A stretch of 64,000 bases of DNA from Paenibacillus urinalis (GTDB taxonomy: Bacteria; Bacillota; Bacilli; Paenibacillales; Paenibacillaceae), in the NCBI RefSeq assembly GCF_028747985.1, contig NZ_CP118108.1:811501-875500 (forward strand). Direction: 5' to 3'. Numbering within the stretch: the first letter of the stretch is position 1; every line of letters begins with the position of its first letter. Below the pieces are notes generated by a model. That model made no database searches, was not told where the DNA came from, and worked only from the letters and a program-made list of their open reading frames with translations. Position numbers and translations under genes: made by a program. Positions 28,557 through 46,717 of this stretch are shown here, in pieces.

Positions 28557-29270
28557 ATTCTCAAACAGATATTAGGCTGGTTTAAGAGCGAGAAGAAGCA
28601 AGAAGTTAAGAAGACAGTAAACAAGGAAGTTAAGAAGGAAAATAAGAGTACATCAGTAAAAACAAAGCCGAAAGTAGCTCCCACACGTATAGGTGAGCTT
28701 GGTGAGCACAAGATCAATATTCAGCTGGATCAGCTTCCAAAGGAATGTAGTTATATCAGCGACTTAATGCTCGTGAATCCCAAGTCACGCTCAGGATACT
28801 CTCAGATCGATCATGTTGTCGTGTCTCCGTATGCTATATTCGTGATTGAAACGAAGAATTATAACGGAGAGATCAAAGGAAAGAAGGAAGACAGGGAATG
28901 GGGCGTCAGCAATCGATACAAGCTTTACAACCCACTAAGACAGAACTATGGGCATATTAAAGCGATACAAGCACATATTCCAGACTTTAAGGTTCCCTAT
29001 GTTTCGATGATTTCATTTACGATGCGTTGCAGATTTAATGTCGATCCGGAGCTGAGGAAGATCCAGTCCAATGAACTGATTATATATGACGTAGAGCTTT
29101 CGGAGTTTATCCAGAGGAAGATTAATAGATTGAAAATGGAAGGAAAGAACCCATTGCTTTCTGAGACTGAGATTATAGAAATAGTAGGGAAACTGAGAGA
29201 TCTGAACATTACAGATCCATTTCTGCGAGAGCAGCATGTAAAAGGAGCAAAGACTGCTTCCCCTTCATAA
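28557..29270 (+). CDS. NERD-domain nuclease-related protein, probable ATT start
   Basis: A 237-residue protein. A short basic, Lys/Glu-rich N-terminal segment is followed by the NERD domain (about residues 45-165): TRIGELGEHKIN, then DHVVVSPYAIFVIETKNY, which contains the Asp and Glu-x-Lys of the restriction-endonuclease fold. The first ATG in frame (28767) would delete the beginning of the domain. The frame is open from 28503 and has no ATG, GTG or TTG before 28767; the ATT at 28557 lies 6 bp after GGAGGAG, and the following residues, LKQILGWFK, look like a genuine N-terminus. ATT starts are rare but real (infC). A mutated ATG is the alternative. Confidence 0.7.
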   Translation: MLKQILGWFKSEKKQEVKKTVNKEVKKENKSTSVKTKPKVAPTRIGELGEHKINIQLDQLPKECSYISDLMLVNPKSRSGYSQIDHVVVSPYAIFVIETKNYNGEIKGKKEDREWGVSNRYKLYNPLRQNYGHIKAIQAHIPDFKVPYVSMISFTMRCRFNVDPELRKIQSNELIIYDVELSEFIQRKINRLKMEGKNPLLSETEIIEIVGKLRDLNITDPFLREQHVKGAKTASPS

Positions 29271-29333
29271 ATATTTCTTGATACAAGAATCCTTACTAAC
29301 AAATTCAAATCAATTATTTAGGGGGATATTAGA

Positions 29334-30365
29334 TTGGCGTTGTGGCTATTTCGTGCCGGACGTTCTGGTGAGTACGAGTCCAAGTTTCTTAGTGATCAAA
29401 GAATCTATTTAACTTGGGATGAATTAAATATTGATCTAAGAGGTTTTGGAGAAAGATCTGATCTAATCGAATATCTAATGAATGATTATGAAGCAGAGAA
29501 GCTAGCCAGAGCTAGGAACTGGGCAAGTCAAATAATGCCGATTGTAAGCGAGATGAAAAAAGGGGACTGGGTTATTTTACCTAGCAAACTCAAATCTGCA
29601 ATCCATATCGGTGAGATTATGGGAGACTATGAGTTCCACCCGGATCATAGCAACCCTTATTATCACAGCCGAAAAGTGAATTGGTTTGCCACAGATATCC
29701 CAAGAACTAATTTTGACCAAGATCTGCTATATTCACTCGGAGCCTTTATGACAGTCTGCCGGATATCAAGAAACGATGCAGAAGAAAGAATTAAAGCGAT
29801 GCATAAGAATAACTGGATGACCAGCGGTTCAAAAGTTCAAATCAATATTCCTAGCCAAGATCCGCAAGAAGCTACCGAGAATATGTTTGATCTCGAAGAA
29901 TATGCGAATGATGCCATTGCTAAATATATTATTCGTAAATTTAAGGGACACGGTATGGCTAGAATTATTGATGCCGTTCTTAGGGCAAAAGGCTTCACCA
30001 CCTATATAAGTCCAGAAGGGCCGGACAAAGGTGTAGATATTTTAGCTGCTCCAGGAAATCTAGGCTTTGGTACTCCAAAAATTTGTGTGCAAGTGAAGAC
30101 ATCTGATACTCCAGTAGACAGACCAACCTTAGATCAATTGATTGGAACCATGCATAACCACAAAGCAAGTCATGGATTACTAGTATCTTGGGGCGGCTTC
30201 AAAAGCTCTGTTGATAAAGAAATTGCAGCACAGTTTTTTAATGTGAGATTGTGGGATCAGAAGGCGATTATCAATGAGCTACTAGAAACATACGACTCAT
30301 TGGATGCAGATATAAAGGCAGAAATTCCTTTAAAAAGAGCGTGGCTCCTAGCTGGTGAGGAATAG
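29334..30365 (+). CDS. Mrr-type restriction endonuclease, upstream partner of Zorya
   Basis: A 343-residue protein. The C-terminal half is an Mrr-cat endonuclease domain: GHGMARIIDAVLRAKGFTTY, then GPDKGVDILAA and ICVQVKTSDTPVD, which supply the Asp and Gln-x-Lys of the catalytic site, and a closing helix with SHGLLVSWGG. The N-terminal 180 residues (LWLFRAGRSGEYESKFL, KKGDWVILPSKLKSAIHIGEI) resemble PUA-like base-reading domains found on type IV enzymes. It starts at TTG 29334 behind GGGGGAT. It is the first of six same-strand genes running to zorD; the next starts 43 bp downstream. It could cut modified DNA alone or serve as the nuclease of the Zorya complex. Confidence 0.8.
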   Translation: MALWLFRAGRSGEYESKFLSDQRIYLTWDELNIDLRGFGERSDLIEYLMNDYEAEKLARARNWASQIMPIVSEMKKGDWVILPSKLKSAIHIGEIMGDYEFHPDHSNPYYHSRKVNWFATDIPRTNFDQDLLYSLGAFMTVCRISRNDAEERIKAMHKNNWMTSGSKVQINIPSQDPQEATENMFDLEEYANDAIAKYIIRKFKGHGMARIIDAVLRAKGFTTYISPEGPDKGVDILAAPGNLGFGTPKICVQVKTSDTPVDRPTLDQLIGTMHNHKASHGLLVSWGGFKSSVDKEIAAQFFNVRLWDQKAIINELLETYDSLDADIKAEIPLKRAWLLAGEE

Positions 30366-30408
30366 GGACTTATTATACAGGGAAGTGAATGGAGGAAGTT
30401 AAGGTAAC

Positions 30409-32370
30409 ATGTCGATTTTTAAATTCTTGGGTGAAGTGAATGAAGGCTTGTCTACTTTAGCTATTCAAGCTGAAGCAGATATATGGACGAATCCACGCAC
30501 AACCTTGACTCAAGGAAGGTTATTTAGCGAAGAACTCGCAACTATCGTTTCAAAAATGGAGAAAGTGGAGCCTGTGTATTCAATAAAACCAAGTGAACGA
30601 GTTCATCTTCTATCACGAAGAAATGTCATTTCGGATGAACTGAAGGACAGCTTTGACTGGCTGCGTAAGAACGGTAATATGGCTGCACATGATTTAAAAC
30701 CCATTCAGATAGATTTGGCTTTGTCAGCACACAGACATATTTTCACTTTAGCATTATGGTATGCGGAAGCTTATGGTCCGTTGGAAATTGAACTTCCGGA
30801 TTACCTGATGCCGAGGCCTATCAAAGATGAAGATATACCCAAAAAAGATCATTCGGTAGATATGGGGGAGCAAATCGAACAATTGCTTAGCGCTCAATTT
30901 GAATCTAAAATTCTCCCAACAATGAATAAGCAGTTTCAACAATTGCATGAATCCATTGCCCAAATAGCAGAGATGAATAATCGCAATAAGTTTGAACAAA
31001 CAGAAAGGGCTGAAAATCCTGCTGCTGATATTCAGCAGACTACTTCAATTGAGGTCTTAGAAACTGGCAATCAAGAAAAATCGGATATGGAAATTGGAGA
31101 GTACCTATCTTCCAAAGGACATAACATTTTAGACAAAAGGGCGAGTGGAGGAGCGCTATGGATTGTTGGCGGCTGGGAGCTCAAAGAAGAATTGTTTGGA
31201 CTTAAAGTGCTCGGAGCATTTTTTAAATTTGCGAAGAATGGGAGCCAGTCTACAAAGCGTTCCCCTGCCTGGTTTTTATTGAACAAAAAGCCAGTTAGCA
31301 TTCCTATAAATAACGAAGATATGAATGTTTCTAAGGAAGAGATAGCTGCTTCTATCGAGGAAACTATCATGCCAGAAGTGCGTATTTCTGAAGATGAGAC
31401 TAGAAAAGTAGACACTGTAGAGTCTACTGAGACTATGGAACAAGACAACACAACAATCAAAACCCAGAATGATGTAATCGATAGAATCGAAATCAGGAAA
31501 TCGTTTTTGAATAAAGAACTTGTTTTCCCTGCTTCTATGGCGGGAATGTCAATGTCCGAATTAAATCTTAAGGGTAACCAGGCCATTTTGGAGTATTTAT
31601 TTAATGAGCTGAAGGTTACTATGCTCCAAGAACTTCCTGAGAACCTTTCGCTTCTGCAAGATAATATTCCAGGAGTTGGACCCAAATCGATTGAACGCTT
31701 CGTTAAGCAGTTAGAAGAAGCGATAGCAGTTGAGAAGAAGTTAATTGGTTCCGGTAAACGTAAAGAGAATGCCGTGATAGCTTATCGAGAATTGAAAAAG
31801 AAACTAGGTAGACGACCTAATTATATTGAGCTTCATGAGCAAGGATCTATAGTCAGTCAGGAGTACCGGTCACTTTTTGATTCATATATCAACTTCTTAT
31901 TCTTAGCAAATGAACTAGACAAAGAAGAAGCCAGTGTGGCTAAACGATATTTAAAGTGGTTTCAAGAGGTGGATAATACGATTTTACGCAAAAGCTATAA
32001 AATGACGCTGCTGCTTGTGATGCTTGAACGTGGATCGGAGAATTGGATGGAGCCTATCACCGCGGACGAAGCGGTGCCGTTCTTCTATGATTTCTATATG
32101 GGTGACGAGACAAGAAAGTCTGTCGATTTCTCCGATTCAGAGACGCAAAAACTGTGGGATGCCCCACTTGATCGTACCGCTCAATTAATTAGCAGAATGC
32201 CAATGACCCACTGGTCAAAGTCATCTAATAAGCAAGTGATCTACTCGAATGATCAGTTCAGGGTAGGATTTCAGATTAAAGAAGCAGATCGAGAGTTGGT
32301 ATATAAGTGGACGAAAGAAATTTGCGAGTACAGACTGCTTCATTACTTCGAACGTAAATCGGACTCTTAG
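30409..32370 (+). CDS. DUF4145/HhH multidomain protein, upstream partner of Zorya
   Basis: A 653-residue protein without an evident enzyme core. Order of modules: an N-terminal DUF4145 (HEPN-like) domain with WLRKNGNMAAHDLKP (residues 83-97) and HRHIFTLALWYAEA; a helical linker; a small domain with GGALWIVGG (about 247-255) and KRSPAWFLL, as seen in several defence helicases; an acidic linker; a helix-hairpin-helix (DNIPGVGPKSIERFVKQL, about 422-439); and a C-terminal helical domain (YRELKKKLGRRPNYIELHEQ, TILRKSYKMTLLLVML) like the tail of DUF3427 helicases. GAGGAAG precedes the ATG. It lies 43 bp after the Mrr gene and 81 bp before zorA. It probably binds DNA and couples the nuclease to the Zorya machine; this is inference. 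Confidence 0.7.
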   Translation: MSIFKFLGEVNEGLSTLAIQAEADIWTNPRTTLTQGRLFSEELATIVSKMEKVEPVYSIKPSERVHLLSRRNVISDELKDSFDWLRKNGNMAAHDLKPIQIDLALSAHRHIFTLALWYAEAYGPLEIELPDYLMPRPIKDEDIPKKDHSVDMGEQIEQLLSAQFESKILPTMNKQFQQLHESIAQIAEMNNRNKFEQTERAENPAADIQQTTSIEVLETGNQEKSDMEIGEYLSSKGHNILDKRASGGALWIVGGWELKEELFGLKVLGAFFKFAKNGSQSTKRSPAWFLLNKKPVSIPINNEDMNVSKEEIAASIEETIMPEVRISEDETRKVDTVESTETMEQDNTTIKTQNDVIDRIEIRKSFLNKELVFPASMAGMSMSELNLKGNQAILEYLFNELKVTMLQELPENLSLLQDNIPGVGPKSIERFVKQLEEAIAVEKKLIGSGKRKENAVIAYRELKKKLGRRPNYIELHEQGSIVSQEYRSLFDSYINFLFLANELDKEEASVAKRYLKWFQEVDNTILRKSYKMTLLLVMLERGSENWMEPITADEAVPFFYDFYMGDETRKSVDFSDSETQKLWDAPLDRTAQLISRMPMTHWSKSSNKQVIYSNDQFRVGFQIKEADRELVYKWTKEICEYRLLHYFERKSDS

Positions 32371-32451
32371 ACCGCAAAATAGCTTCAAATCCGTTATAGC
32401 AGGACCCGATAGGGTTCTTTTTCAAATAATTATAAATTCGGGGGATTAACA

Positions 32452-34302
32452 GTGAGTGTATCTTCAATTTTCGTAATTATCGTCTGCGTTGGAGCAATTT
32501 TGATTCTTGGAATCTATCAACTTATCCGTAGGTTTAAGCAGAACAAAGAGGTTCTACACGAATCTGAAATGATTCAGCAAAAATTGATTGAAATACAAAA
32601 AGTAGATGATATAACGGAACGTTTTAACCAGATGAATGACTGGATCCTAAATCAGGAAAGTAAATATGTGAAGAATTATGTTGTACCTGCTTGGAAATCA
32701 TTCCATCAAAAGTATATGAGCCAAGGAGTAAGCTTAAAACTCGTTCCTGACGTTTACGATTTCTTCGTAGAGGAAGAACTAGTCCATAAATATGGAAATC
32801 GAAAGTTCGTTGAACTCATTCCTGGCATGTTCCTATCGATTGGTATTCTTGGGACATTTGCGAGTCTTGCCGTTGGAGTCGGATCGCTAGATCTCAATGC
32901 GAATTCTGAAAACATGAGAGCAGGGGTAAGTTCCCTTTTGAGTGGTATGCAATCAAAGTTTGCTTCGTCAATTTTCGGGATATTCGCTTCGATCACATGG
33001 CAATCCCTAGATAAGAAACTTTTCCTTCCAAGACTACAACATGCGTACTTCAGAATAAGGGATTCGTTTGATGAAGCGTTCCCAACTCAGGATCAAAATA
33101 CATTTCTAGTACAAATGCTAGAAAACCAAAAGAATCAAATGAATGACTTCCAAGTATTTATGTCAGAGCAGATGATTCCGCAAATGATAAATGGTTTTAA
33201 CCAAAGTCTGAACCAATCGTTGCTGCCTCCTATGGAAAAAACGCAAGAACTGATGAATGAGTTAATCACAAGTGCTTCTGTAAATCAGATGGATGGCGTA
33301 AAACAGCTCACCTCAGAGGTCATGAATTCATTAAATGATCTTACTGGAGAACATATGAAGCAGTTAGGAGAAGCATTGGAGGCAACGGTAGAGTGGCAGA
33401 AGAAAGTCCATGAAGAAATGACGGGCTTGGTAGATTCTATGCAGGAGGCTGCCAAGAACCAATCGGAAATGGTCGATAAAACGACAGTCCTTACCCAAGA
33501 GATACATAACTATACGGATAATATAACAAATTATCAGAAAGTACTTGAGGGAACGGTTGCTCAACTAAATGATACAACATCTACGAATAGTGAGCTGCAA
33601 TCTGCTACTAGTAGCTTATTAGGAAAAATAATTGAAGAAAGAAATGTGTTTAACGCACACTTTGACGAACATATATCAAAACTTCAAACCAATGTAGTAT
33701 CTATTGTGGATCAGACAGAGAAGCAAGTAGTCGTACAAGAGTTATTGGGTCAAAACTTGGAACGAATATCAGAAATGACATTGAGCCAGGAACAGTTAGC
33801 AGTTTCCTTATCAGAACAAGCAAGTCATACCCAAAGTTCTAGTGAAGAGCTTGGTAAGCTCCTGATTCATTTTGAGAACAATGCCGTTCAATATAATGAT
33901 CTGCAGGAAAAAATGGGAGATATGTTACAGCAAGCAGAGAAAGATCGTAGGGTCTTCGATCAACTCGTTGAACGTATCCAAACGAATTTAGCGGAGCAAG
34001 TGGAAGATATGGACGAGCGCGTAGAGTATTTAGGTTCGCTCTGGTCCGAAAATAAAGAGACTATGGACAAGTTAAGTAAGCAGCTGAGTACTTCAATGAG
34101 TCAATTTACAGATGACATGCATCGCGGAATTATGAGAACGTTCGAGAAGTTTGATGAAGAGCTTACTACGTCTGTGAATCTTCTAGCAAAAGGTGTGGAT
34201 TCCATGAGAGACGGATTAGTTGATATGCCAGATGTAATTCAAGAGCTCAAGCAGTCTGTAATAGAAATAAATAATCAAGCCAAGCGTGCTACAACCGTTT
34301 AA
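32452..34302 (+). CDS. zorA: ZorA, MotA-like channel subunit of type I Zorya
   Basis: A 616-residue membrane protein. A first helix (SIFVIIVCVGAILILGIYQL) is followed by a pair of helices of the MotA/TolQ/ExbB channel domain (PGMFLSIGILGTFASLAVGV about 124-143; SSIFGIFASITWQSLDKK about 172-189) and then a coiled-coil tail of more than 400 residues rich in Gln and Glu. A long cytoplasmic tail is the hallmark of ZorA, whose pentamer forms with ZorB a proton-driven motor in the membrane that senses phage invasion. The start is GTG 32452 behind GGGGGAT. Genes B, C and D follow with 16 bp, -11 bp and -4 bp spacing, so they form one operon. Confidence 0.88.
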   Translation: MSVSSIFVIIVCVGAILILGIYQLIRRFKQNKEVLHESEMIQQKLIEIQKVDDITERFNQMNDWILNQESKYVKNYVVPAWKSFHQKYMSQGVSLKLVPDVYDFFVEEELVHKYGNRKFVELIPGMFLSIGILGTFASLAVGVGSLDLNANSENMRAGVSSLLSGMQSKFASSIFGIFASITWQSLDKKLFLPRLQHAYFRIRDSFDEAFPTQDQNTFLVQMLENQKNQMNDFQVFMSEQMIPQMINGFNQSLNQSLLPPMEKTQELMNELITSASVNQMDGVKQLTSEVMNSLNDLTGEHMKQLGEALEATVEWQKKVHEEMTGLVDSMQEAAKNQSEMVDKTTVLTQEIHNYTDNITNYQKVLEGTVAQLNDTTSTNSELQSATSSLLGKIIEERNVFNAHFDEHISKLQTNVVSIVDQTEKQVVVQELLGQNLERISEMTLSQEQLAVSLSEQASHTQSSSEELGKLLIHFENNAVQYNDLQEKMGDMLQQAEKDRRVFDQLVERIQTNLAEQVEDMDERVEYLGSLWSENKETMDKLSKQLSTSMSQFTDDMHRGIMRTFEKFDEELTTSVNLLAKGVDSMRDGLVDMPDVIQELKQSVIEINNQAKRATTV

Positions 34303-34318
34303 GTGAGGGGGATATCAA

Positions 34319-35095
34319 GTGGCACGAGGAATACGGGGAGCAAAGGGTAGTAACGGTGTAGGAGAAGAAAAGGAAAGTTCCTGGATCTCCTACACAGACT
34401 TAATGTCGGCATTATTAATCATTTTTGCACTTGTGATTATGATTACAATGTATGACACGCAAAATGCCTATGAGCAGCAACAACAAGCCATGGATGAAGC
34501 TGCGGAAGCACTTAAGCAGAAGGAAGAAGTCATTGCCCAGAATAACCAGTTGATTGAAGAGGTAGTTGGAGTTAAGTCGAAAATTATCGAAGAATTGATG
34601 CTTGCTTTTCAGGATTCTAATTTAGATTTGCAAATTGATCAGCAGACAGGAGCTATTCGCTTCTCTGGAGGCGTATTTTTTAATAAAGACAGCAGTACTG
34701 TTTCTGTTAAAGGAACAGAATACCTTGAAATGTTTATACCCAAATACATTGAAATTTTATTATCTGACCAATTCCGGGATGAGATTGCTCAAATTATAGT
34801 AGAAGGACATACCGATAGTGACGGGGGATATCTATATAATTTGAAGCTTTCTCAAGATCGGGCTTTGTCCGTTGTAGAAGAAGTTTTTGCACCGACCTTT
34901 CCTAAGTTCCCATATCAAGAGGATCTCAAGGCTGTCATTACGGCGAATGGGCGTTCCTTCAGTGTGCCTATCCTAGATAAGAACGGGAAGATGGATCAAG
35001 ATAAATCACGTCGTGTTGAGTTCAAATTCCGATTAAAAGACGAACAGTTACTTGAAAAACTACAAGGATTAATGGTGGAAGAAGATGGAGGATAA
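34319..35095 (+). CDS. zorB: ZorB, MotB/OmpA-like stator subunit
   Basis: A 258-residue protein. A short basic cytoplasmic N-terminus, one membrane helix (ISYTDLMSALLIIFALVIMI) with the proton-binding Asp27 (YTD) near its cytoplasmic end, a linker helix, and a C-terminal OmpA/MotB peptidoglycan-binding domain with IIVEGHTDSDG and LSQDRALSVV plus a closing DKSRRVEFKF. This equals the MotB plan, so it anchors the Zorya motor to the cell wall. GTG 34319 follows GAGGGGGAT. The end overlaps zorC by 11 bp. Confidence 0.9.
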   Translation: MARGIRGAKGSNGVGEEKESSWISYTDLMSALLIIFALVIMITMYDTQNAYEQQQQAMDEAAEALKQKEEVIAQNNQLIEEVVGVKSKIIEELMLAFQDSNLDLQIDQQTGAIRFSGGVFFNKDSSTVSVKGTEYLEMFIPKYIEILLSDQFRDEIAQIIVEGHTDSDGGYLYNLKLSQDRALSVVEEVFAPTFPKFPYQEDLKAVITANGRSFSVPILDKNGKMDQDKSRRVEFKFRLKDEQLLEKLQGLMVEEDGG

Positions 35096-36359
35096 ATCAT
35101 ATATTTTTCATTTTGCATTTACACCGAGCAAATTGTCTGCGGTAAGAAAAAAGGTGGAAGAGAAATATCGTGACGTGGATATGCTGACTGCTTCACAGAT
35201 TAGCTATCTACGGCTTCCAAAAATTCTGGAACTGATTCGGAGTACATCTGAGGATCGTCTGGAACAAATGGCATCAGAGTTTTTTAGAGGGAGAGACTAT
35301 TCGGTTCTGACCTATAGTTATCCGTATACCAATGAATCAAGTGATGTAGAGAAAAAGATTAATATGGTATTGGCCTACGGTTATACTCCTGGCAATGCAA
35401 ATATGATTTGGGAGAAGTTCCAGAGAGATTACAAACATATTTATACCGAGGACTTACTAAGAAGGTTTCTACTTAAAGATGAGGGTATTTCATTTATATA
35501 CTCGGATTATACAGATGCTGAACTAAAGGAATTGCTTATCCCGGCTTTTATGCATAAGGCAGGAATTGCTCAAGGGCTATTACAGGTTATGATTCATAAA
35601 GATCCTAAGATAGCTGAGTTTTTGAAGAAGATGAAGATCAAACCAGAGACACCTTTAGAAGATTTTTTGGTCTATGAGAGATTAAAAGAGGGTCTCAGTC
35701 GAGAGGATTTCTTAGAACAAAATACTATTGAATATATTACCCGCATGTTTGAAAAGTACCCAATTGAACAATATCAAGAACTCATGAAGATTTATCTGGA
35801 AGGTCGAACTTTTGAACAGTTTCATTTTCAGATCATGGATCAGGCGATTAAGCGACTTCATGATCCTAGAGAACGGGATGAAGATTGGCGGTTTTTATCG
35901 GAACAAGCACGTGAAGAGGTAAATAAATGGCTAGTGGAAGCTGAGCTTGAAGACTATTTCGATACTGAGAGATTTGAATATTGGAAACGTTATTTACGAG
36001 TAATGGATAATGTGAAAACTCTAAAAAGAACCAATGATCCGAAAGTGATTTTTCTATATTTTGAGAACTTCGTAGTTGTGGAATTTGGCGAAAATGGAAA
36101 GGCGGTTTATTTCTATTATAAGACAGGGTTTGAGCGTTTCATTCTACCACGAACTACTAGTTATGAATATATGAGAAAAGGTACATCAGATAGGGAGTCA
36201 TTATTGAAAGAAAGATATGAGACTTTTAATGGAGAACCTTTATTTATAATTAAGCTTCATCATACTCCAAAGGGAATGTGGATGGATAGATTTACCAGAT
36301 ATATGCAAAACTATCTGAGTGGGAATTACAGCTACACAGAAAGGAATAAAGGACCATGA
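35085..36359 (+). CDS. zorC: ZorC, EH-signature domain protein
   Basis: A 424-residue, mainly helical soluble protein. The EH-signature type region near residues 285-330 (EDYFDTERFEYWKRYL followed by VIFLYFENFVVVEFGENGKA) is the feature that defines ZorC proteins. It binds DNA in studied type I systems and is thought to detect foreign DNA or recruit ZorD. No membrane helix is seen. The start overlaps the last codons of zorB by 11 bp and its stop overlaps the zorD start (ATGA), which forces coordinate translation. The assignment leans on gene order; sequence similarity alone would be weak. Confidence 0.78.
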   Translation: MEDKSYIFHFAFTPSKLSAVRKKVEEKYRDVDMLTASQISYLRLPKILELIRSTSEDRLEQMASEFFRGRDYSVLTYSYPYTNESSDVEKKINMVLAYGYTPGNANMIWEKFQRDYKHIYTEDLLRRFLLKDEGISFIYSDYTDAELKELLIPAFMHKAGIAQGLLQVMIHKDPKIAEFLKKMKIKPETPLEDFLVYERLKEGLSREDFLEQNTIEYITRMFEKYPIEQYQELMKIYLEGRTFEQFHFQIMDQAIKRLHDPRERDEDWRFLSEQAREEVNKWLVEAELEDYFDTERFEYWKRYLRVMDNVKTLKRTNDPKVIFLYFENFVVVEFGENGKAVYFYYKTGFERFILPRTTSYEYMRKGTSDRESLLKERYETFNGEPLFIIKLHHTPKGMWMDRFTRYMQNYLSGNYSYTERNKGP

Positions 36360-39109
36360 GTTTTTGGAGTAAACTTAAAAAGAGAACCAAAGAACCTGAA
36401 TATAATGCAATTACGTGGCAATTGGGTAAAGTGCCGCAGGGACTTAGTATTCAACTTTTCCGTGATGGGGGGCAGACGATAGTCTCTCCCCCACTTCGTA
36501 TGTCAGTAGCCGAAATAAGACAACAGCCGAATGTAGAGCTTCTGGAGCTCATTGAGTCCATGTGGTACGAAGAATTACTGCAGGAGTCAGACAATAGATA
36601 TTTACTTCCTTATGAATTGCTTGTCGAGGCCCCTTCAGAAATCAGAGAAACACTTGGTGTACCGGAGCCTGTTCAGCTTGAGCTGTTTCTCGGTCACGAA
36701 GGATTCGTAGGCAGTCCCCGTTTTCAGTTTAAGCTTGAAAAACATCTGCCAGCTTGGAGGCATATAGAGAAATCATCTCGTCAGATTGGACCGTGGATAC
36801 AGCTTCCCGATCGCTCATATATTCTAATGGCATTGGAACAATATCAACTTCATAGATTAATCTCCGAGGAAACACCTGATGTCATGGATAAGGAGCAGGT
36901 CTTTGCATACGTAGCCAAAGTCCAGTCTCAGGCTAGACAGCTTGGTATTCCTGTAGATGATTATTTACAGAAACAAAATTACAAATTTGCCGATGGGCTA
37001 GATCTTGATGTTAGCTACGATGGAAGCGAAATAGAGATTATTCCTAAATATCTATCCAGTGATGAAGTGCCTGATAAGCTGCTTGATGAGATGGCTGGAA
37101 ATAACTCTACCTATTATAGCGATTCAGAAACAGGGAAGATTTTTGTCTCGACGGATGTAGTTCAGCAAGCTAAGGTAGTAAAAAATAGGGCACCTATCCG
37201 AGGACAGGATATCCCTCGTTTTGCCGAGAACCCGGAAGCCTTTCTACCAGAGCTCGGAGAGCTGGATTTATCCCTGTTTGGGGAGCGAGTTAGATCTCTA
37301 GGTATAAGAGTGTATAAGGCACAACCTTATGTTCATGCAGAAGAAAAAGGACGAGGATGGTTTGAACTGAATGCTGGTGTCTCATTAGTTGATTCCGAGG
37401 GAGAAACCAATAGCAATTTTTCTACAGAGCAGTTTAAGGATTTAATTAATAACGCTAGAGAAGCTGGTGCCGAATTCATTGAGCTGGATGGAAATTGGAT
37501 TAAGGTCCCACATGATGTGGAAAAGTTTGAGGAAGCAGTGGGTCGTTTCCATCAGGCGCTGGGTGATAAACCTGAAGTGGATGTTACCAAACTTCCTTAC
37601 GTACTAGAGATTTTTGAAAATATAACACAACTCGAATATAATCAGCCGATTTTGGCTGCACACCAGGAAATGATGGATCAAGGGATTTTAGATCCTGCTC
37701 CTCCTACTTACTTTAACGCGCAATTAAAACCATTCCAACAAGACGGATTTGTGTGGATGAAATCTCTCCACTATCGTAAATTGGGCGGACTCTTAGCTGA
37801 CGATATGGGGCTTGGAAAAACGATTCAAGTTGTGTCATTCCTAAGTTATTTACATGAGCAAAATAAACTTACACCTACGCTCATCGTGGTGCCCAAGTCT
37901 CTTATAGATAACTGGGTCGCTGAAGTACATAAATTTGCTAGTCCACTGGCTAGTATGATTTATATACATACTGGAGTTCAACGCTTGAAGGATCCAGAGA
38001 GATTACAACAGCAACCGATTACTCTAACTACCTACCAGACACTGGTGAGAGACCAGCTTGTCTTCGGACAAGTAGCATGGCAGGCATTAGTTTGTGACGA
38101 AGCACAAGCCATTAAAAATCCAACGACAGCTGCAAGCAAAGTCATCAAAGCAATGAACGTAAAGTTTAGACTGGCCATGACAGGAACACCTGTAGAGAAC
38201 GGATTGAGCGAACTTTGGTCTATTATGGATTATGTGCAACCCGGGCTGCTTGGGAGTCTGAGCGAGTTCAAGAAGGAATTCATGGATAAATTAGAAGCTG
38301 AGGAAAGAGACCGGGAGACGGAGCAAAGACTGCTGGCTCGAATTAATATGGTGTACAAACGTAGAACAAAGTCAGAAGAACTTAGTGGTCAATTGCCGTC
38401 CAAGAGCTTAATTGAACTACCCGTATCACTTGGTACGGAACAAAAACAGCTGTATTCATCTATTATTTCTCAAGTTCAGTCCAAATCATTATCTGGTTTG
38501 CAAGCCATTCAACAATTGAGAGAGCTTTGTTCTCATCCGGCTCTTCTGGTTCCAACTTTGAAGTCATTACCCGTAGGTGCTGTACCTAAGCTCGCACAAA
38601 CGATGAAATTACTTAGAGAAATACAAAGTAAAGGTGAAAAAGCACTTATTTTTACCGAGCTTCGTCTTATGCAAGAGATTATCCGAGATGCAGTACGTGA
38701 AGAGTTTCAGATTGATCCTTTTATTATTAATGGGGTAACTAATCGTAGACAAGAAGTAGTAAATCAGTTTAATGAGAAAGCTGGATTTGATGTGATGATC
38801 TTGTCACCAAAGGCAGCGGGTACAGGGCTAACAATTACTGCGGCAAACCATGTCATTCACTATACACGGTGGTGGAATCCTGCGGTTGAGAATCAGGCAA
38901 CAGATCGCGTGTATCGTATTGGTCAGAATAAGCCAGTCCAGGTTTACTATCCAATCGTAACAGCTGAGCAAAATTTTCTTTCTTCGGGGACAGTGGAAGA
39001 GATTGTTCATCGGATTCTATCGGAGAAGCAGGAGCTTGCTTCTTCGATTATTGTATCCTCTCGGAAGCTGGAGATAGAGAATGAAGTGCTGGAGAGTGCA
39101 TTTCAATAG
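36356..39109 (+). CDS. zorD: ZorD, SNF2-family helicase/ATPase of type I Zorya
   Basis: A 917-residue protein. The first 450 residues are a Zorya-type N-terminal domain of mixed structure. The SNF2 ATPase follows: motif I ADDMGLGKT (about 480-488), motif II VCDEAQ (about 578), motif III LAMTGTP, motif V GTGLTITAANHVIHYTRWW and motif VI NQATDRVYRIGQ. It ends at LESAFQ soon after motif VI with no recognisable C-terminal nuclease domain, while ZorD of characterised type I systems is reported to include an Mrr-like nuclease; here an Mrr gene is found upstream instead. The protein probably translocates on invading DNA and is recruited by the motor. Start ATG 36356 behind AAAGGA. It closes the six-gene run; 221 bp separate it from hsdM. 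Confidence 0.88.
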   Translation: MSFWSKLKKRTKEPEYNAITWQLGKVPQGLSIQLFRDGGQTIVSPPLRMSVAEIRQQPNVELLELIESMWYEELLQESDNRYLLPYELLVEAPSEIRETLGVPEPVQLELFLGHEGFVGSPRFQFKLEKHLPAWRHIEKSSRQIGPWIQLPDRSYILMALEQYQLHRLISEETPDVMDKEQVFAYVAKVQSQARQLGIPVDDYLQKQNYKFADGLDLDVSYDGSEIEIIPKYLSSDEVPDKLLDEMAGNNSTYYSDSETGKIFVSTDVVQQAKVVKNRAPIRGQDIPRFAENPEAFLPELGELDLSLFGERVRSLGIRVYKAQPYVHAEEKGRGWFELNAGVSLVDSEGETNSNFSTEQFKDLINNAREAGAEFIELDGNWIKVPHDVEKFEEAVGRFHQALGDKPEVDVTKLPYVLEIFENITQLEYNQPILAAHQEMMDQGILDPAPPTYFNAQLKPFQQDGFVWMKSLHYRKLGGLLADDMGLGKTIQVVSFLSYLHEQNKLTPTLIVVPKSLIDNWVAEVHKFASPLASMIYIHTGVQRLKDPERLQQQPITLTTYQTLVRDQLVFGQVAWQALVCDEAQAIKNPTTAASKVIKAMNVKFRLAMTGTPVENGLSELWSIMDYVQPGLLGSLSEFKKEFMDKLEAEERDRETEQRLLARINMVYKRRTKSEELSGQLPSKSLIELPVSLGTEQKQLYSSIISQVQSKSLSGLQAIQQLRELCSHPALLVPTLKSLPVGAVPKLAQTMKLLREIQSKGEKALIFTELRLMQEIIRDAVREEFQIDPFIINGVTNRRQEVVNQFNEKAGFDVMILSPKAAGTGLTITAANHVIHYTRWWNPAVENQATDRVYRIGQNKPVQVYYPIVTAEQNFLSSGTVEEIVHRILSEKQELASSIIVSSRKLEIENEVLESAFQ

Positions 39110-39330
39110 ATATTTTCTGATACCAGGTAAAGTAGCTGGAACTTATAAATAGTATAAAAATGTCTAATATGGATGCTTGAATGAGTGAGATTTCTGTCGA
39201 ATTATTAGTTTTTTCATGCTACGATTGCACTAGGCTATGTAATTAGATTTAATAAAATTAAAGTAATAAATATGATTATTAAAAGTCAGAACAGCCTTTT
39301 ATAGGATAACACAGGGGGAAAGACATAATA

Positions 39331-40824
39331 ATGAGTCAGTTAACTTTACAAGAATTAGAACCTCACTTATGGAAATCTGCAGACATTTTGCGTGGGTCTG
39401 TGGACTCAAGCGATTATAAGAATTATATTTTTGGATTGTTATTCTTAAAGCGTTTGAGTGATGTATTTGAAGAGCAGAAGCAAGAGTTGGTACAAGAACA
39501 TGGGGAAGAGATTGGGCAACTCTTGTCAGATGATCCGGATCAATACCAATTCTTCGTGCCTGCTGCTGCGCGTTGGGAAGAGATTCGTAAGCATGCTAAC
39601 GATATTGGATCAGCAATCAACGTAGCATTTGAAGCACTTGAAAATGAAAACCAAACACTTGAAGGTGTCCTAACACCAATTGACTTTAACCGTAAAGAAG
39701 TGCTGACAGATAGTGTATTACTGCGATTGCTTCAGCATTTTTCCTTATTAGATCTAAGAAATGCAAATTTATCTGAACCCGATATGCTCGGTCGAGCATA
39801 CGAATACTTGATTAAGATGTTCGCTGATGATGCAGGGAAGAAAGGCGGAGAGTTCTATACGCCATCCAAAGTTGTTGAGTTAATCGTTAAGCTTATTAAG
39901 CCTGAGGAAGGCATGCGTGTATATGATCCGACTTGTGGTTCGGGTGGTATGCTAATTCAATCGGTTGATTATGTAAGGGAGCATGACGGTAATCCGCAAT
40001 CTTTATCTTTGTTCGGTCAAGAAAAGAACTTGGGTACATGGGCGATCGGCAAGATGAATTTGCTACTGCATAATTTACCGGATCATCGCATTGAGAAAGG
40101 CGACACCATTCGTAAGCCTAAGCTCGTAGAAGATGGAGAAATTATGTTGTTCGATCGTGTTATTGCCAATCCTCCATTTTCCCTAAAAGAGTGGGGACGT
40201 GAGGAAGCCGAGCATGATCCATATGGTCGCTTCCAGTATGGTATACCACCAAAAAATGCGGGAGACTATGCCTTCATCCAGCATATGGTGGCTTCTCTTA
40301 AAGCCGATGGAAAGTGCGGGGTTGTTATGCCGCATGGTGTACTATTCCGTGGAGGGGCAGAAGGTAAGATTCGTCAAGGATTGGTTGAGGCTGACCTCTT
40401 AGAAGCGGTTGTTGGATTACCTTCTAATCTGTTCTATGGGACAGGAATCCCTGCTTGTGTTCTTATCTTCAATCGCAATAAGTCTGTTGATCGTAAAGGC
40501 AATGTATTGTTCATTGCGGCGGAAGGTGAATATCAAGAAGGTAAGAACCAGAACACACTTCGAGAAGATGACATTAAGAACATCGTGGCAGCTTTTGATG
40601 CTTATGAAGATGTTGAAAAGTATGCTCGCGTAGTTTCATTGGATGAGATTAAGAACAATGACTATAACCTAAATATTACTCGATACATTGATAAGTCTGA
40701 AGAAGAAGAGAAAGTGGATCTGGAATCGGTAATTATGGACATTTCTGAGCTGGAAAGTAAACGAGCGGATATAAAAATGAAATTAAATGGTTATCTTCGT
40801 GAACTAGGGTTGGGTGAAGTGTGA
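39331..40824 (+). CDS. hsdM: Type I restriction-modification methyltransferase subunit HsdM
   Basis: A 497-residue N6-adenine methyltransferase. An HsdM N-terminal helical domain (LWKSADILRGSVDSSDYKNY) is followed by AdoMet motif I YDPTCGSGGMLIQ (about 200-212), catalytic motif IV VIANPPFSLKEWG (about 276-288) and a C-terminal coiled coil (LESVIMDISELESKRADI) that contacts HsdS. It methylates the host recognition site with HsdS and completes the endonuclease with HsdR. GGGGGAAAGACATAATA precedes the ATG. Its stop overlaps the hsdS start (TGATG). The system appears intact. Confidence 0.92.
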   Translation: MSQLTLQELEPHLWKSADILRGSVDSSDYKNYIFGLLFLKRLSDVFEEQKQELVQEHGEEIGQLLSDDPDQYQFFVPAAARWEEIRKHANDIGSAINVAFEALENENQTLEGVLTPIDFNRKEVLTDSVLLRLLQHFSLLDLRNANLSEPDMLGRAYEYLIKMFADDAGKKGGEFYTPSKVVELIVKLIKPEEGMRVYDPTCGSGGMLIQSVDYVREHDGNPQSLSLFGQEKNLGTWAIGKMNLLLHNLPDHRIEKGDTIRKPKLVEDGEIMLFDRVIANPPFSLKEWGREEAEHDPYGRFQYGIPPKNAGDYAFIQHMVASLKADGKCGVVMPHGVLFRGGAEGKIRQGLVEADLLEAVVGLPSNLFYGTGIPACVLIFNRNKSVDRKGNVLFIAAEGEYQEGKNQNTLREDDIKNIVAAFDAYEDVEKYARVVSLDEIKNNDYNLNITRYIDKSEEEEKVDLESVIMDISELESKRADIKMKLNGYLRELGLGEV

Positions 40825-42128
40825 TGAAGCAGGCTCGTGATGGATATAAAATGACGGAGCTTGGGGAGATACCGGTCGAGTGGGAATTAAGGGAGTTACA
40901 AGATGTTATGCAAAAAGGTGGATCTGGGGTTAAACGAGGTCCATTTGGTGGAGCATTGAAGAAAGAATTTTTTGTTGCAGATGGATTTGCAGTGTACGAA
41001 CAGCAACACGTTATATACAATCGATTTAATAATATTAGATACTTTATTACAAGTGAGAAATTTGATGAACTTAGTGGCTTTGAAGTTTTACCAGAAGACA
41101 TCCTTATAAGTTGTTCAGGGACAGTAGGGAAAGTATCAATTGTACCTAAAAGAATAAAACGTGGTGTAATGAATCAAGCGCTTTTAAGATTTCGACCAGA
41201 GAAAAACCTAGCTGACCATACTTTTTTATATTTTTTATTGATGTCAGAGGATGTTCAATCAAGAATGTTGGATATGACACATGGATCAACGATAAAAAAT
41301 ATGGTAGCAGTATCTGAAATTAAAGGATTAAAGATTGGATTACCTTCATTAAAAGAACAACAAAAAATCGCCGAGATTCTTTCGACAGTTGATGAGCAGA
41401 TTGAGAACACAGAACAACTGATAGAAAAAACAAAAGAGCTTAAAAAAGGTTTAATGCAGCAACTCCTGACAAAAGGCATTGGACATACCGAATTTAAGCA
41501 GACGAAGCTTGGGGAGATACCAGTTGAGTGGGAAGTTAAGGCAATAAATGAGGTTAGTGTCTTTTGTTCAAATGGATTTGTAGGTACCGCAACTCCGTTC
41601 TACACTGAGAAATCCGACGGTGTTTTATATCTACAAAGTAACAATATACGGAAGAATAGATTGGATTTAACTAAAACCGTATACATTAATTCGGAATTTA
41701 CAGAAAAATATACTAGAGCCAAAGTAAAATCAAACGATTTGTTAACGGTTCAATCCGGTCATATTGGTTCAACTGCTGTAGTAACAGAACAATTTGATGG
41801 AGTTTATTGTCATGCACTGATTATAACTAGACTTAATGAATCAATTGTTGACCCAAATTATTTAGCATATTATTTAAATTCTGATATAGGAATGAAGTGG
41901 CTTTCTAATATATTTGTAGGTTCGACAATAAAACATATCAACGTGAAGGATTTTGTGAAGTTTTCAGTCCCTATCCCAAACCTGAGCGAACAACAAAAAA
42001 TCGCCTCTATCCTTTTATCCGTTGATAAACAGATAGAAAGCTACGAGCAAGAGAAAGAAAAATACCTCGAACTCAAAAAAGGTTTAATGCAGCAGTTACT
42101 AACAGGACAAATACGAGTGACGGTGTAA
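40824..42128 (+). CDS. hsdS: Type I specificity subunit HsdS
   Basis: A 434-residue protein with two target recognition domains (about residues 15-170 and 225-385). Each ends in a conserved helical repeat: LPSLKEQQKIAEILSTVD then KELKKGLMQQLL, and IPNLSEQQKIASILLSVD then LELKKGLMQQLL. These form the coiled spacer that sets the gap in the bipartite DNA site. Each domain begins with the same LGEIPVEWE segment, encoded by nearly identical DNA (40857-40886 and 41504-41533), which would permit swapping of recognition domains. ATG 40824 overlaps the hsdM stop by one base; GTG 40821 is an alternative. The recognised sequence cannot be predicted from this. Confidence 0.9.
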   Translation: MKQARDGYKMTELGEIPVEWELRELQDVMQKGGSGVKRGPFGGALKKEFFVADGFAVYEQQHVIYNRFNNIRYFITSEKFDELSGFEVLPEDILISCSGTVGKVSIVPKRIKRGVMNQALLRFRPEKNLADHTFLYFLLMSEDVQSRMLDMTHGSTIKNMVAVSEIKGLKIGLPSLKEQQKIAEILSTVDEQIENTEQLIEKTKELKKGLMQQLLTKGIGHTEFKQTKLGEIPVEWEVKAINEVSVFCSNGFVGTATPFYTEKSDGVLYLQSNNIRKNRLDLTKTVYINSEFTEKYTRAKVKSNDLLTVQSGHIGSTAVVTEQFDGVYCHALIITRLNESIVDPNYLAYYLNSDIGMKWLSNIFVGSTIKHINVKDFVKFSVPIPNLSEQQKIASILLSVDKQIESYEQEKEKYLELKKGLMQQLLTGQIRVTV

Positions 42129-42159
42129 GCCGTTGCTCGCAACCGGGAGGTGAACGAAA

Positions 42160-45087
42160 ATGAACCCTTTGGAATATACCGAGGTAGAACAACCCTTTAC
42201 TGAACAGTTAGTAAATTACGGCTATACCTATATGGAAGGTTCTAAATTGGAGAACGATCGCTCTTCAAGAGCAAGCGTCGTCTTGGAACAAAGATTTGCA
42301 GATGCAATTCGCAAGCTCAATCCTTGGATTGACGAATACAATGTAGATCGGGTAGTAAAGCAGTTTACTTCCTTGCAGGCGGAAGATGTATGGCATGCAA
42401 ATAATACGATATTCGATTGGCTATTCGGACAAGGAATATCCGTAATGCAGGATGTTGGGGCAGGTAAGAAGAATCAGACGGTTCAGCTCTTTGATTATGA
42501 GAATGTCGAGAACAACGATTACCTCGTGGTCAATCAGATTGTCTTTGAAAATGCAGCTGGAACCATCCGTCCTGATCTTATCCTATACGTTAATGGGTTA
42601 CCACTTGTACTTATTGAGTGTAAAAGTCCAAAGCTTCAGGTAGACAAGCAGCTTCCTGAAGGTGTACGGCAATTCGAACGTTATATGGACACAAATGAGA
42701 AGTTGTTCTGGTATAACCAGATGCTGATCGTGACGAGCCGGGATCGTGCGCGTGTAGGTACGATCTTTGCTAAGCCACAGCACTACGGTCTATGGAAAGA
42801 TCCTTATCCTTATACTTTTGAGGAGATTGGAAGTCACCGGGCGCAGGATGTACTTGTATCCGGGATGCTGCGTAAGGATACCGTTCTGGATCTTATGCGT
42901 AACTTCATCGTCTTTGATGGAAAGGTAAAGAAACTAGCTCGTTATCAGCAGTATCGTGCAGTCAATAAAACGATAGAGCGAATCATGAAGGAAAAGAATC
43001 CTTCTTGTCGCGGCGGCGTGGTGTGGCATACGCAAGGTTCTGGTAAATCATTAACGATGGTGTATCTAGCGATGAAGCTGCGTCGGCAGACAGCGTTAGA
43101 GAATCCGATGCTTGTCATCGTAACAGATCGTCAGGATTTGGACGATCAAATTACGAAGACATTCCAGCAGTCAGGATTTCCGAATCCTACGCAAGCAAGT
43201 TCAGTTGCCGATCTGAAACACCAGCTTACCAAAGGTCCAGGTACAACCGTGATGACGCTGATTCAAAAGTTCCAAGGTGATGAGGAGAAGGCCTTTCCTA
43301 TCATCTCGGAATCTGAGCAAATTATCGTCATGACAGATGAATCCCACCGTTCACAGTATAAAGGACTAGCCCTCAACATGCGTAAGGCATTGCCCAATGC
43401 AACCTTTATTGGATTTACCGGTACGCCGATAGATAAGAAAACTCGCTCGACGACAGGAAAGTTTGGCTCTTACATCGATAAATATACGATTGAGCAGGCA
43501 GTTGAAGATGGGGCTACGGTTCCGATTCATTATGAATCCAGGCTTCCGAACCTACATATGAAGGGAGATACATTGGACGAGTTATTTGCCCGCACCTTCT
43601 TCGAGTATGACGATGATGCCAGAGAGAAGATACAGAAGAAATACGTGAATGATCAGCTCCTCTTAACTGCACCAGAGCGAATGAAAGAAATTGCTCTTGA
43701 TATCGTTCGCCACTTTGAATCTCGTATATTAATCAATGGCTATAAAGGTCAGGTGGTAGCTGTCTCCCGCGCGGCTGCAGTTGAATATAAGAAACTGATC
43801 GATCAATATGCGATGGGAAAGTTTGAAACAGCAGTAATTTTCTCAGCTGGACAGAATGATGAGGAAGAATTACGAAACTATCACATCTCGAAAGACGAAG
43901 AAAAACTGCTGATTGAGCGTTTTAAGAAGCCATTTTCCGAGGATAAGTTAGCGTTGTTAATCGTCTGTGATAAGTTATTGACTGGCTTCGATGCACCAAT
44001 TGAGCAAGTGATGTATTTGGATAAACCTCTCAAAGAACATAACTTACTGCAGGCGATTGCTAGAACAAACCGGAAATATGATGCGAATAAATCGTATGGA
44101 CTTATTGTAGATTATTTTGGAGTGTCCCGTTTCTTAGATCAAGCTCTTGAGATCTTCAGCGCGAATGATGTTCAGGGAGCATTACAATCGATTGATAATG
44201 AATTACCAAGACTTGAGCAGCGTCATCGCTCTACAATGCGTTTCTTTGATGGACTGAAACCGGATCAGCTGGAAGAAAGTATTCTAAGACTCGTAGATGA
44301 AGATGTACGCGCGGACTTTGATATTGCTTATAAACGATTTGCGGAGAGTATGGATAAGGTGATGCCAAGTCCTAAAGGTGAAAGGTTCCTACCAGCCTTA
44401 AAGCGTCTTGGTGTCATCCGTCAGTTAGCTAAATCCCGGTTTTCCATTGATGATGGCATGGACATCTCTGATTGCGGAGAGAAGGTTAGGCAGATTGTAC
44501 ATGACTTTTTGCGTTCTGCTGGTATTGATGCTAGAGATCCGGTATCGATTTTGGATGTATCTTTCAAAGAAGAGCTGGATAAGAATACGCTCCCAGAAAC
44601 GAAAGCAGCTCAGATGGAGCATGCGATCAAGAAAGAAATCTCAGTTCGTCTTGGCGAGGATGAAGTCTATTATACTTCTTTGAAGCAGAAGGTTGAGGAA
44701 TTGCTGGCACGTTATAAAGAGCGTCAGATGACCATCTTCGAGCTGTTAGAGAAGCTGGATGCGGTCCGTGATGAGATGATAGAGAAAGCAAACGGTAATA
44801 CAAACAGCGGTCTGACTTATATGCAGGAGCCTTACTACAACAAACTCTATGAAGTATGTGAGCAGCGGGCGGATTATGAATTGAAAGAAATTGCCGTTGA
44901 TGTACAGCAGTTTATTGAGGAGCGCGTTACACCAATTAGTGACTGGACGACGAAGACGGATTTTAAGCGTCAATTGACTGGAGATCTGAAGGTAAAGCTG
45001 CTCAAACAGAAGATGAATATGAGTGATGCTTCGATGCTGACAGGATATTTTACAGCACTCGCAGAAACCCAATATGGCAAAAAATAA
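42160..45087 (+). CDS. hsdR: Type I restriction endonuclease subunit HsdR
   Basis: A 975-residue motor-nuclease. The N-terminal nuclease domain has RPDLILYVNGLPLVLIECKS (about 134-153), which supplies the Asp and Glu-x-Lys. A helicase core follows with Walker A QGSGKSLTMVY (about 290), motif II MTDESHR (about 392), motif III FTGTPI and motif VI AIARTNR. The C-terminal helical domain binds HsdM and HsdS. It pumps DNA and cuts at stalled collisions when both strands of the site lack methylation. It follows hsdS by 31 bp behind GGGAGG. Nothing suggests loss of function. Confidence 0.92.
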   Translation: MNPLEYTEVEQPFTEQLVNYGYTYMEGSKLENDRSSRASVVLEQRFADAIRKLNPWIDEYNVDRVVKQFTSLQAEDVWHANNTIFDWLFGQGISVMQDVGAGKKNQTVQLFDYENVENNDYLVVNQIVFENAAGTIRPDLILYVNGLPLVLIECKSPKLQVDKQLPEGVRQFERYMDTNEKLFWYNQMLIVTSRDRARVGTIFAKPQHYGLWKDPYPYTFEEIGSHRAQDVLVSGMLRKDTVLDLMRNFIVFDGKVKKLARYQQYRAVNKTIERIMKEKNPSCRGGVVWHTQGSGKSLTMVYLAMKLRRQTALENPMLVIVTDRQDLDDQITKTFQQSGFPNPTQASSVADLKHQLTKGPGTTVMTLIQKFQGDEEKAFPIISESEQIIVMTDESHRSQYKGLALNMRKALPNATFIGFTGTPIDKKTRSTTGKFGSYIDKYTIEQAVEDGATVPIHYESRLPNLHMKGDTLDELFARTFFEYDDDAREKIQKKYVNDQLLLTAPERMKEIALDIVRHFESRILINGYKGQVVAVSRAAAVEYKKLIDQYAMGKFETAVIFSAGQNDEEELRNYHISKDEEKLLIERFKKPFSEDKLALLIVCDKLLTGFDAPIEQVMYLDKPLKEHNLLQAIARTNRKYDANKSYGLIVDYFGVSRFLDQALEIFSANDVQGALQSIDNELPRLEQRHRSTMRFFDGLKPDQLEESILRLVDEDVRADFDIAYKRFAESMDKVMPSPKGERFLPALKRLGVIRQLAKSRFSIDDGMDISDCGEKVRQIVHDFLRSAGIDARDPVSILDVSFKEELDKNTLPETKAAQMEHAIKKEISVRLGEDEVYYTSLKQKVEELLARYKERQMTIFELLEKLDAVRDEMIEKANGNTNSGLTYMQEPYYNKLYEVCEQRADYELKEIAVDVQQFIEERVTPISDWTTKTDFKRQLTGDLKVKLLKQKMNMSDASMLTGYFTALAETQYGKK

Positions 45088-45089
45088 TA

Positions 45090-45122
45090 AAAATGACCAG
45101 CAACCTGTTTGCTGGTCATTTT
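45090..45122. terminator. Bidirectional terminator between hsdR and the YgjP-like gene
   Basis: A 14-bp perfect stem (AAAATGACCAGCAA with TTGCTGGTCATTTT) around a 5-base loop with A/T flanks can stop transcription from both sides of this convergent pair. Confidence 0.85.
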
Positions 45123-45847
45123 CATATATTTAGTGTTGATCCGTTTACACGCAGCCAATCCTTCTTTTGTTCATAATCAGGGAGCAGCATTCGTACGGTT
45201 TCCCAATATTCCTTGGAATGATTCATATACTTCAAATGTACCAGTTCGTGCACAAGTACATAATCAACAATTGAGGCAGGTGCTAAGAAGATCCGCCAGT
45301 TTAATAGCATATTGCCGGCAGTAGTACAGCTTCCCCAACGTTGTTCTTGATCCTTGATAATGATTTTATTGGGATATTGTTGAAATTTATCTGTGAATTT
45401 ACTTACTCGATCTTTGGTAAAGATCATTCCTCGATGTTTAACCCACTCTACATAGAGTGGCATGAGGATTTCTCTATATTGGTGTTCTGGTATATCAGTA
45501 TGAATGTATGCTCGAAATTGACCTTGATAGAAGTTAATTTCTGGTGCTGTAAAATCATTGGTTCTAATCACCTTTAATCGATATTGTCTTCCTAGATACG
45601 GCAGCTTCTCACCAGAAACAAACCTCCGTTGGAGAGAGCTCTGCTTCATCTCTTCAAAATTTAACAATTGAGTGCGTAGCCAGGTCCCTTTACGATGTAA
45701 GATATTTTCAATGACATGTTCTTCAGCGGTATTAGGAGCGACCACTTGTACACCTTCTTGATTAACAGAGATGGACACTGTCTTACGACGGTCGCTTCTC
45801 TTTAATTTGTATTCAATGGTCTGAGTTCCATATTGAAATAATGGCAT
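45122..45847 (-). CDS. YgjP-like (M48/WLM) metal-dependent hydrolase
   Basis: A 241-residue zinc-dependent protease-like protein. The catalytic VLVHELVHLKYMNHSKEYW contains HELVH (HExxH) and the third ligand further on, as in the YgjP/SprT-like group, which act as soluble peptidases. The N-terminal half (YKLKRSDRRKTVSISVNQEG, YLGRQYRLKV) is a beta-rich domain typical of these proteins. Homologues sit next to hsdR genes in many bacteria, as here, on the opposite strand; their role in restriction is not established. Minus-strand start 45847, with AGGAGGAATCATC upstream. Confidence 0.85.
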   Translation of the reverse strand: MPLFQYGTQTIEYKLKRSDRRKTVSISVNQEGVQVVAPNTAEEHVIENILHRKGTWLRTQLLNFEEMKQSSLQRRFVSGEKLPYLGRQYRLKVIRTNDFTAPEINFYQGQFRAYIHTDIPEHQYREILMPLYVEWVKHRGMIFTKDRVSKFTDKFQQYPNKIIIKDQEQRWGSCTTAGNMLLNWRIFLAPASIVDYVLVHELVHLKYMNHSKEYWETVRMLLPDYEQKKDWLRVNGSTLNI

Positions 45848-46638: not shown

Positions 46639-46717
46639 CCTACACTATATAGATGATGAGATAATTCAGAGCTTGTTGAAGATAATGAACTCGACTTGTT
46701 CCTGAAAAATAGAGCTG

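Follow-up and report, generated by a model that had tools for sequence, protein, structure and literature searches.

Analysis of a 64,000-nucleotide stretch of Paenibacillus urinalis DNA (contig NZ_CP118108.1, positions 811,501 to 875,500; hereafter the window, with positions counted from its first base) led to a series of defence-related genes between 28767 and 51402, among them the four genes of a putative Zorya system (Table 1). An earlier note on this DNA had joined six open reading frames (ORFs), namely a Mrr-type endonuclease gene, a DUF4145 gene and zorA to zorD, into one defence unit and had suggested that they were a novel Zorya subtype or else two systems side by side. The six ORFs do lie on one strand in the order and with the gaps described (43, 81, 16, -11 and -4 bp), but they are not one Zorya unit. 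The gene run continues beyond zorD into hsdM, hsdS and hsdR of a type I restriction system on the same strand, a YgjP-like metallopeptidase gene on the opposite strand, an orphan Mrr_cat ORF and McrB-McrC, the last being a McrB AAA partner and an adjacent McrC with a DUF2357-PDDEXK nuclease. In our view the region is likely to be an island of several restriction systems, comparable to an immigration control region, with a Zorya embedded in it, and not a six-gene Zorya. The idea of adjacent systems was right in kind, with three of them (type IV, type I and Zorya) in place of two.

Table 1. Features of the window between 28767 and 51402, with the matches or predictions on which each rests.
Feature	Position	Strand	Evidence
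NERD-domain gene	28767..29270	+	PF08378 73.8 bits
Mrr-type endonuclease, PADLOC candidate PDC-S02	29334..30365	+	PF04471 (Mrr_cat) 79.6 bits, cut-off 21; PDLC04815 499 bits
16.4-kb block missing between Mrr and McrBC of two same-genus genomes	30366..46723		blastn, junction sequences
DUF4145/HEPN gene, 653 amino acids (aa)	30409..32370	+	DUF4145 profile just below cut-off; AlphaFold2 model and PDB comparison
Terminator-like hairpin and T run in the gap between the DUF4145 gene and zorA	32401..32418	+	-10.5 kcal/mol, folding of picked piece
zorA	32452..34302	+	PADLOC ZorA1 112 bits
zorB	34319..35095	+	PADLOC ZorB1 284 bits; OmpA 35.3 bits; MotB_plug 17.6 bits (under cut-off 24)
zorC, 424 aa	35085..36359	+	PF15611 EH_Signature 50.3 bits
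zorD, 917 aa, SNF2 helicase without C-terminal Mrr domain	36356..39109	+	PDLC00633 1262 bits; 14-member alignment
hsdM	39331..40824	+	N6_Mtase, HsdM_N
hsdS	40821..42128	+	Methylase_S
hsdR	42160..45087	+	HSDR_N, SWI2_SNF2, T1RH-like_C
YgjP-like metallopeptidase gene	45122..45847	-	PF01863 182.5 bits
Orphan Mrr_cat ORF, 146 aa	46198-46638	+	Mrr_cat 66.9 bits
Stem-loop with T-rich tail, right edge of swappable cargo	46717..46761	+	-21.6 kcal/mol, z -7.0
mcrB (MrcB_N + AAA_5)	46803..49016	+	PF12102 191.7 bits
mcrC (DUF2357 + PDDEXK_7)	48988..51402	+	PF09823 219 bits; PF04411 168.6 bits

Two genomes of the same genus, G172 and G192, have the Mrr gene contiguous with McrBC. Against the G172 locus (L170), blastn aligned window positions 29292-30364 with 9404-10478 (90%) and 46724-51401 with 10510-15189 (84.6%), and DNA farther out also matches on both sides of the block 30366-46723; against the G192 locus (L169) the aligned parts were 29316-30364 and 46721-51389. 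In G172 the Mrr gene is followed by 31 unaligned bases, then the stem-loop (-15.1 kcal/mol, z -4.6), then McrBC, and the NERD gene is missing between the WYL gene and Mrr. In the window the block extends from the end of the Mrr coding sequence to the stem-loop 5' of mcrB, and this position makes Mrr appear to be coupled to its next neighbour; the block contains the DUF4145 (HEPN accessory) gene, ZorABCD, hsdMSR and ygjP. The stem-loop, located between Mrr and mcrB in G172, is found just 5' of mcrB in the window and in Paenibacillus sp. An7. The flanks of the An7 site match those of G192 (93.0% DNA identity over 6.9 kb and 91.5% over 9.3 kb), and between these common flanks G192 has a 570-aa gene and Mrr, while An7 has DUF4145-ZorABCD-hsdM-hsdS-hsdR and no Mrr; the An7 site is flanked by McrBC (DUF4145-ZorABCD-hsdMSR-McrBC). 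Zorya without Mrr (An7) and Mrr without Zorya (G192) therefore occupy one and the same place in these two genomes. The right edge of the An7 cargo is base 26698 of the joined piece and corresponds to window 46724, as does the edge found with G172; G192, G172 and An7 all regain homology to the window at 46721-46724. In the window itself Mrr and Zorya stand together at a McrBC-flanked place, the right edge of which is identical to that of the An7/G192 place. On these alignments, the Mrr gene (29334-30365) is assigned to a Mrr-McrBC restriction locus and not to Zorya. The event was probably an insertion in the window, not a deletion elsewhere, because two same-genus genomes are without the block and because its parts recur elsewhere beside other neighbours.

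The separation of Mrr from Zorya was also seen in counts over one panel of 392 genomes of the order. At E 1e-100 the ZorD profile matches 389 of the 392 through related helicases, and we counted the 13 genomes with a short-type ZorD above 1000 bits (next 495); the DUF4145 family was present in 11 (5 short, 6 long) and Mrr of the PDC-S02 type in 19. Zorya and Mrr are common to two genomes (p 0.13), or to one when G001, the genome nearest to the window, is left out (p 0.44), neither of which is significant. "Nearby" is used here for genes within the stretch read around each locus, mostly ~20 kb (L127 and L173 are shorter and stop at contig ends). All 18 non-window panel Mrr loci were read, and ZorB was found in none of them, McrBC in 8 and NERD in 8. 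Of Zorya loci, 14 were read (the 13 of the panel, window included, and An7); each has ZorB, and there is a Mrr gene nearby in 2 and HsdR nearby in 7. As regards Mrr, the new subtype suggested by the earlier note is not supported.

The genes zorA, zorB, zorC and zorD follow each other in this order on one strand, the gene content of a type I Zorya, with which they share the MotA/MotB-like pair, an EH_Signature ZorC and a SNF2 helicase ZorD. The window clade is divergent, however: the NCBIfam equivalog cut-offs are not reached (ZorA1 57 of 750, ZorB1 80 of 400, ZorD 396 of 1500), no ZorC match was listed by the NCBIfam scan, and ZorC, at 424 aa, is shorter than the 560-aa ZorC of Klebsiella. With PADLOC, ZorB and ZorD match strongly. 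By gene content, the system is filed as a putative divergent member of Zorya. The ZorD proteins of the window and An7 are sisters in the tree with a support of 93/100, short of the 95 mark. Another panel locus (L127) is divergent as well, its ZorD reaching 490 bits to that of the window and its ZorC not being detected. A scan of viral contigs with ZorD led to 16 loci with 31-40% identity (best segment); a match to ZorD at E 1e-60 was present in 287 plasmid records, but in none of them did a single place cover 80% of the protein. PDB sequence searches gave no relative of Mrr or of the short ZorC.

Comparison of an AlphaFold2 model of the DUF4145 protein with the PDB revealed a HEPN fold at residues 8-128, a long helix at 152-197 (probably a coiled coil), a small alpha/beta domain at 226-299 and a HhH-like domain at 358-440, while residues 448-652 match SauUSI 616-799 by fold, i.e., its coupler domain (domain limits as given in the part of PMC7913695 that treats them). 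Foldseek of the model against the PDB had no match at E 0.001 or better among the matches listed, a list that leaves room for other folds; a PDB sequence search gave no relative with the DUF4145 profile and one weak match with the single sequence (E 0.19), and a viral contig scan gave none. The N-terminus of EcoKI HsdR is a homologous domain in fused form (hhalign, BLASTP); the N-terminus of the window HsdR has no DUF4145 match (HSDR_N begins at residue 8). Residues R86 and H94 are invariant in 14 sequences, with position 87 varying, and are compatible with a HEPN active site. Their spacing (Rx7H), however, is one residue longer than the published Rx4-6H; EcoKI HsdR aligns with the same Rx7H spacing. 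SauUSI is a type IV enzyme dependent on 5-methylcytosine, and the window protein resembles it in the coupler-like fold and differs in that no PLD nuclease, SF2 ATPase or SRA domain of the SauUSI family is among its Pfam matches at E up to 1. We rejected a sensor of modified DNA as a reading of this part, as the matched region is the coupler and not the SRA domain.

The DUF4145 gene keeps company with type I restriction genes. They are present in all 14 non-window DUF4145 loci (taken from the order and family panels and Brevibacillus porteri), whereas ZorABCD is directly adjacent in 2 of these (An7 and G088) and not in the other 12; in two of the 12 (G199 and G343) ZorABCD lies on the same contig, ~8 and ~12 kb off, with hsd genes between. 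With the window included, HsdM is near the DUF4145 gene in 15/15 loci, against 3/74 controls; the Fisher test for HsdM (13/13 vs 3/74) pooled G088 with the 12 loci without adjacent Zorya. The controls are 74 weaker-matching loci picked by availability, not at random, averaging 19 kb with some much shorter; what they have in common with the DUF4145 protein is its C-terminal part, and just two of them, L012 and L013, were typed as SauUSI-like. Among them McrC is near in 2, Mrr in 1 and ZorB in 0, and a HEPN match is present in 2. We read the DUF4145 protein as an hsd-locus accessory carried along with the embedded Zorya and, judging from the gene order, ZorABCD as embedded between this HEPN accessory gene and hsdMSR.

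Several variants of these loci were recorded. The long DUF4145 form (L009 10001-14305 and relatives; 1433-1471 aa, seen in 7 genomes, in hsd loci) has only about the first 350 residues in common with the window protein, and a sigma-70 region-4-like stretch was present in the two long forms scanned (L009, L121). A 304-aa gene stands directly 3' of DUF4145 in four distinct loci (L007 12148-13062, the same locus as L158; L006; L159; L195), and the L007 protein has NucS_C and DUF5655 (PADLOC PDC-S18, 495 bits). A ~530-aa gene lies upstream of hsdM in L009 (18910-20499), L158, L159, L162, L163, L165, L166, L167 and L195; the only copy scanned, that of L009, has weak N6_Mtase and Methylase_S matches.

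The closest competitor of an island with an hsd-linked accessory is a tighter tie between the DUF4145 gene and Zorya, which can be drawn in two forms. In the first, for which we would give perhaps one chance in a few, DUF4145(HEPN)-ZorABCD is a working five-gene module, with the HEPN ribonuclease (RNase) as an abortive-infection fallback wired both to Zorya and to any type I hsd system behind it; in the same tentative proposal this RNase is homologous to the N-terminal HEPN domain of EcoKI-type HsdR, but comes from a gene of its own and is joined to a coupler of the SauUSI type. If true, Zorya would have an RNase effector linked to it, and type I restriction a HEPN subunit acting in trans. In the second, which we hold to be rather unlikely, the DUF4145/HEPN protein of this lineage belongs to Zorya itself (e.g., an RNase or DNA-binding partner of ZorCD) with Mrr as a bystander. 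Here the An7 genome counts in favour: it keeps the block 30387-39114 (aligned as two pieces at 72% and 77%; 32334-32744 did not align) although its hsd genes, behind the DUF4145-ZorABCD block, belong to a different family from those of the window, and the DUF4145 proteins of An7 and the window group, fully supported, in a clade of 6 distinct proteins. G088 also has a DUF4145 gene, of the long form, directly upstream of zorA, and the co-occurrence check proposed earlier found Zorya and DUF4145 together in four panel genomes (p 2e-4; three without G001, p 0.0024). Of the 14 Zorya loci, however, just 3 (those of the window, An7 and G088) have a DUF4145 gene directly upstream of zorA and 11 do not, and this, with the type I genes in every other DUF4145 locus and the rarity of adjacent ZorABCD there, argues against a Zorya component. 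The same holds for the gap of 81-85 bp before zorA, with its terminator-like hairpin in the window; no counterpart of this hairpin was seen by eye in the An7 sequence. For DUF4145 the earlier proposal thus has a mixed record: the five-gene block is conserved in the window and An7, but most other loci of either family lack the pairing.

A Zorya subtype of six genes, to which Mrr and DUF4145 would be integral, is, by contrast, very improbable, and as a conserved arrangement is already refuted: the common strand and short gaps speak for it, as does G298, but Mrr and Zorya each occur without the other at McrBC-flanked sites, and neither the other Mrr loci nor most Zorya loci contain the expected partner. 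The G298 case concerns a Mrr gene of another subfamily (L117 7765-8751, minus strand) that begins 15 bp downstream of zorD; this Mrr-Zorya neighbourhood is independent, and McrBC is absent from the stretches read. We dropped, as hardly credible, a relocation in which the C-terminal domains that are fused in other ZorD and ZorC proteins would reside on Mrr and DUF4145 as separate proteins, since the matches behind it (Mrr to PDLC00631, a ZorD model, positions 922-1062 of 1071, E 9e-4; DUF4145 residues 157-256 to PDLC00613, a ZorC model, 443-544 of 570, E 5e-5; the long form to PDLC00613 429-562, E 1.2e-6) are outweighed by a Klebsiella ZorC with no similarity to the DUF4145 profile and by 14 aligned ZorD proteins that all lack a C-terminal Mrr domain, whether or not a Mrr gene is nearby, and yet have none nearby in 12 of 14 loci. 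Nor is there support, as regards Mrr, for the earlier idea that the added genes offer functions ascribed to ZorC and ZorD. The Klebsiella ZorD (L199 7738-10986), annotated as type I, likewise stops at the helicase core, and the alignment shows no Mrr domain at its C-terminus, although the PADLOC description of the ZorD models is Mrr-like nuclease.

Concerning the remaining neighbours, the ygjP-like gene adjoins hsdMSR in Brevibacillus porteri (L006) too. The orphan Mrr_cat ORF (46198-46638), just 5' of the McrBC stem-loop, has 25% identity over 106 columns with the Mrr at 29334 and misses the N-terminal part of that longer Mrr; it may be a remnant or a small gene. Right of McrBC, 51625-52855 and 53716-54573 form a duplication, both copies being 77% identical to one part of L170 (within 15251-16493). 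The 10 kb at 14374-24363 have no match in 20 kb of the G172 site, the matching flanks of which stand ~1.4 kb apart, and are possibly a second insertion.

As a composite island, the region is comparable in content to the immigration control region of E. coli K-12 (mcrC-mcrB-symE-hsdS-hsdM-hsdR-mrr), and no common descent is claimed. In both, mrr, hsd and mcrBC share a locus of variable content for which an empty site exists, with Mrr at one end, the type I genes in the middle and McrBC at the other end. Excerpts of PMC12707154 and PMC3874165 describe variable content between strains and an empty site in E. coli C, and PMC11090510 associates McrBC of the K-12 branch with type I systems. The window differs in its flanking genes, in the ZorABCD and separate HEPN gene inside, and in having HEPN not fused to HsdR. 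A second defence system within an hsd locus and an adjoining metallopeptidase gene recall DarTG2, embedded in a type I system of the RptR island (PMC12255303, in extract), but in that island hsdS and hsdR are separated by a toxin-antitoxin pair, while ZorABCD is upstream of hsdM in the window.

The action of Hsd, Mrr and McrBC on DNA is set by its methylation state. Four defence layers may work side by side: Mrr and McrBC would cut modified DNA, HsdMSR would cut unmethylated DNA, and ZorAB would sense damage at the envelope and recruit ZorC and the ZorD helicase-nuclease, as far as can be drawn from part of PMC11890865 and from general knowledge. The fourth layer, the DUF4145 protein, would most likely serve the type I system in trans, as a fallback of the HEPN RNase type. 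The analogy is with PrrC of the EcoprrI type Ic locus, likewise a latent nuclease encoded with hsd genes, which is held in the type I complex and set free when a phage resists restriction (PMC3874165, in extract), and the RNase domain of which is HEPN (PMC3710099, in extract). By this analogy, the DUF4145 protein could be kept inactive and released once restriction is blocked or DNA is damaged; its RNase activity, trigger, partner and any Zorya link are likewise proposals. It differs from PrrC in its DUF4145-type HEPN and SauUSI-like coupler, and the likeness was drawn through published descriptions.

These data remove a tempting but wrong Zorya subtype, the error having come from cargo placed directly behind a stop codon, which resembles an operon. 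In its place stands an island of Paenibacillus that parallels the immigration control region of K-12 and has undergone natural swaps at one edge. This kind of island is already known, and what is least familiar in it is the separate HEPN-coupler protein: the HEPN gene regularly accompanies hsd loci in this family and, as a protein of its own, allows the HEPN domain at the N-terminus of EcoKI-type HsdR to be tested by itself.

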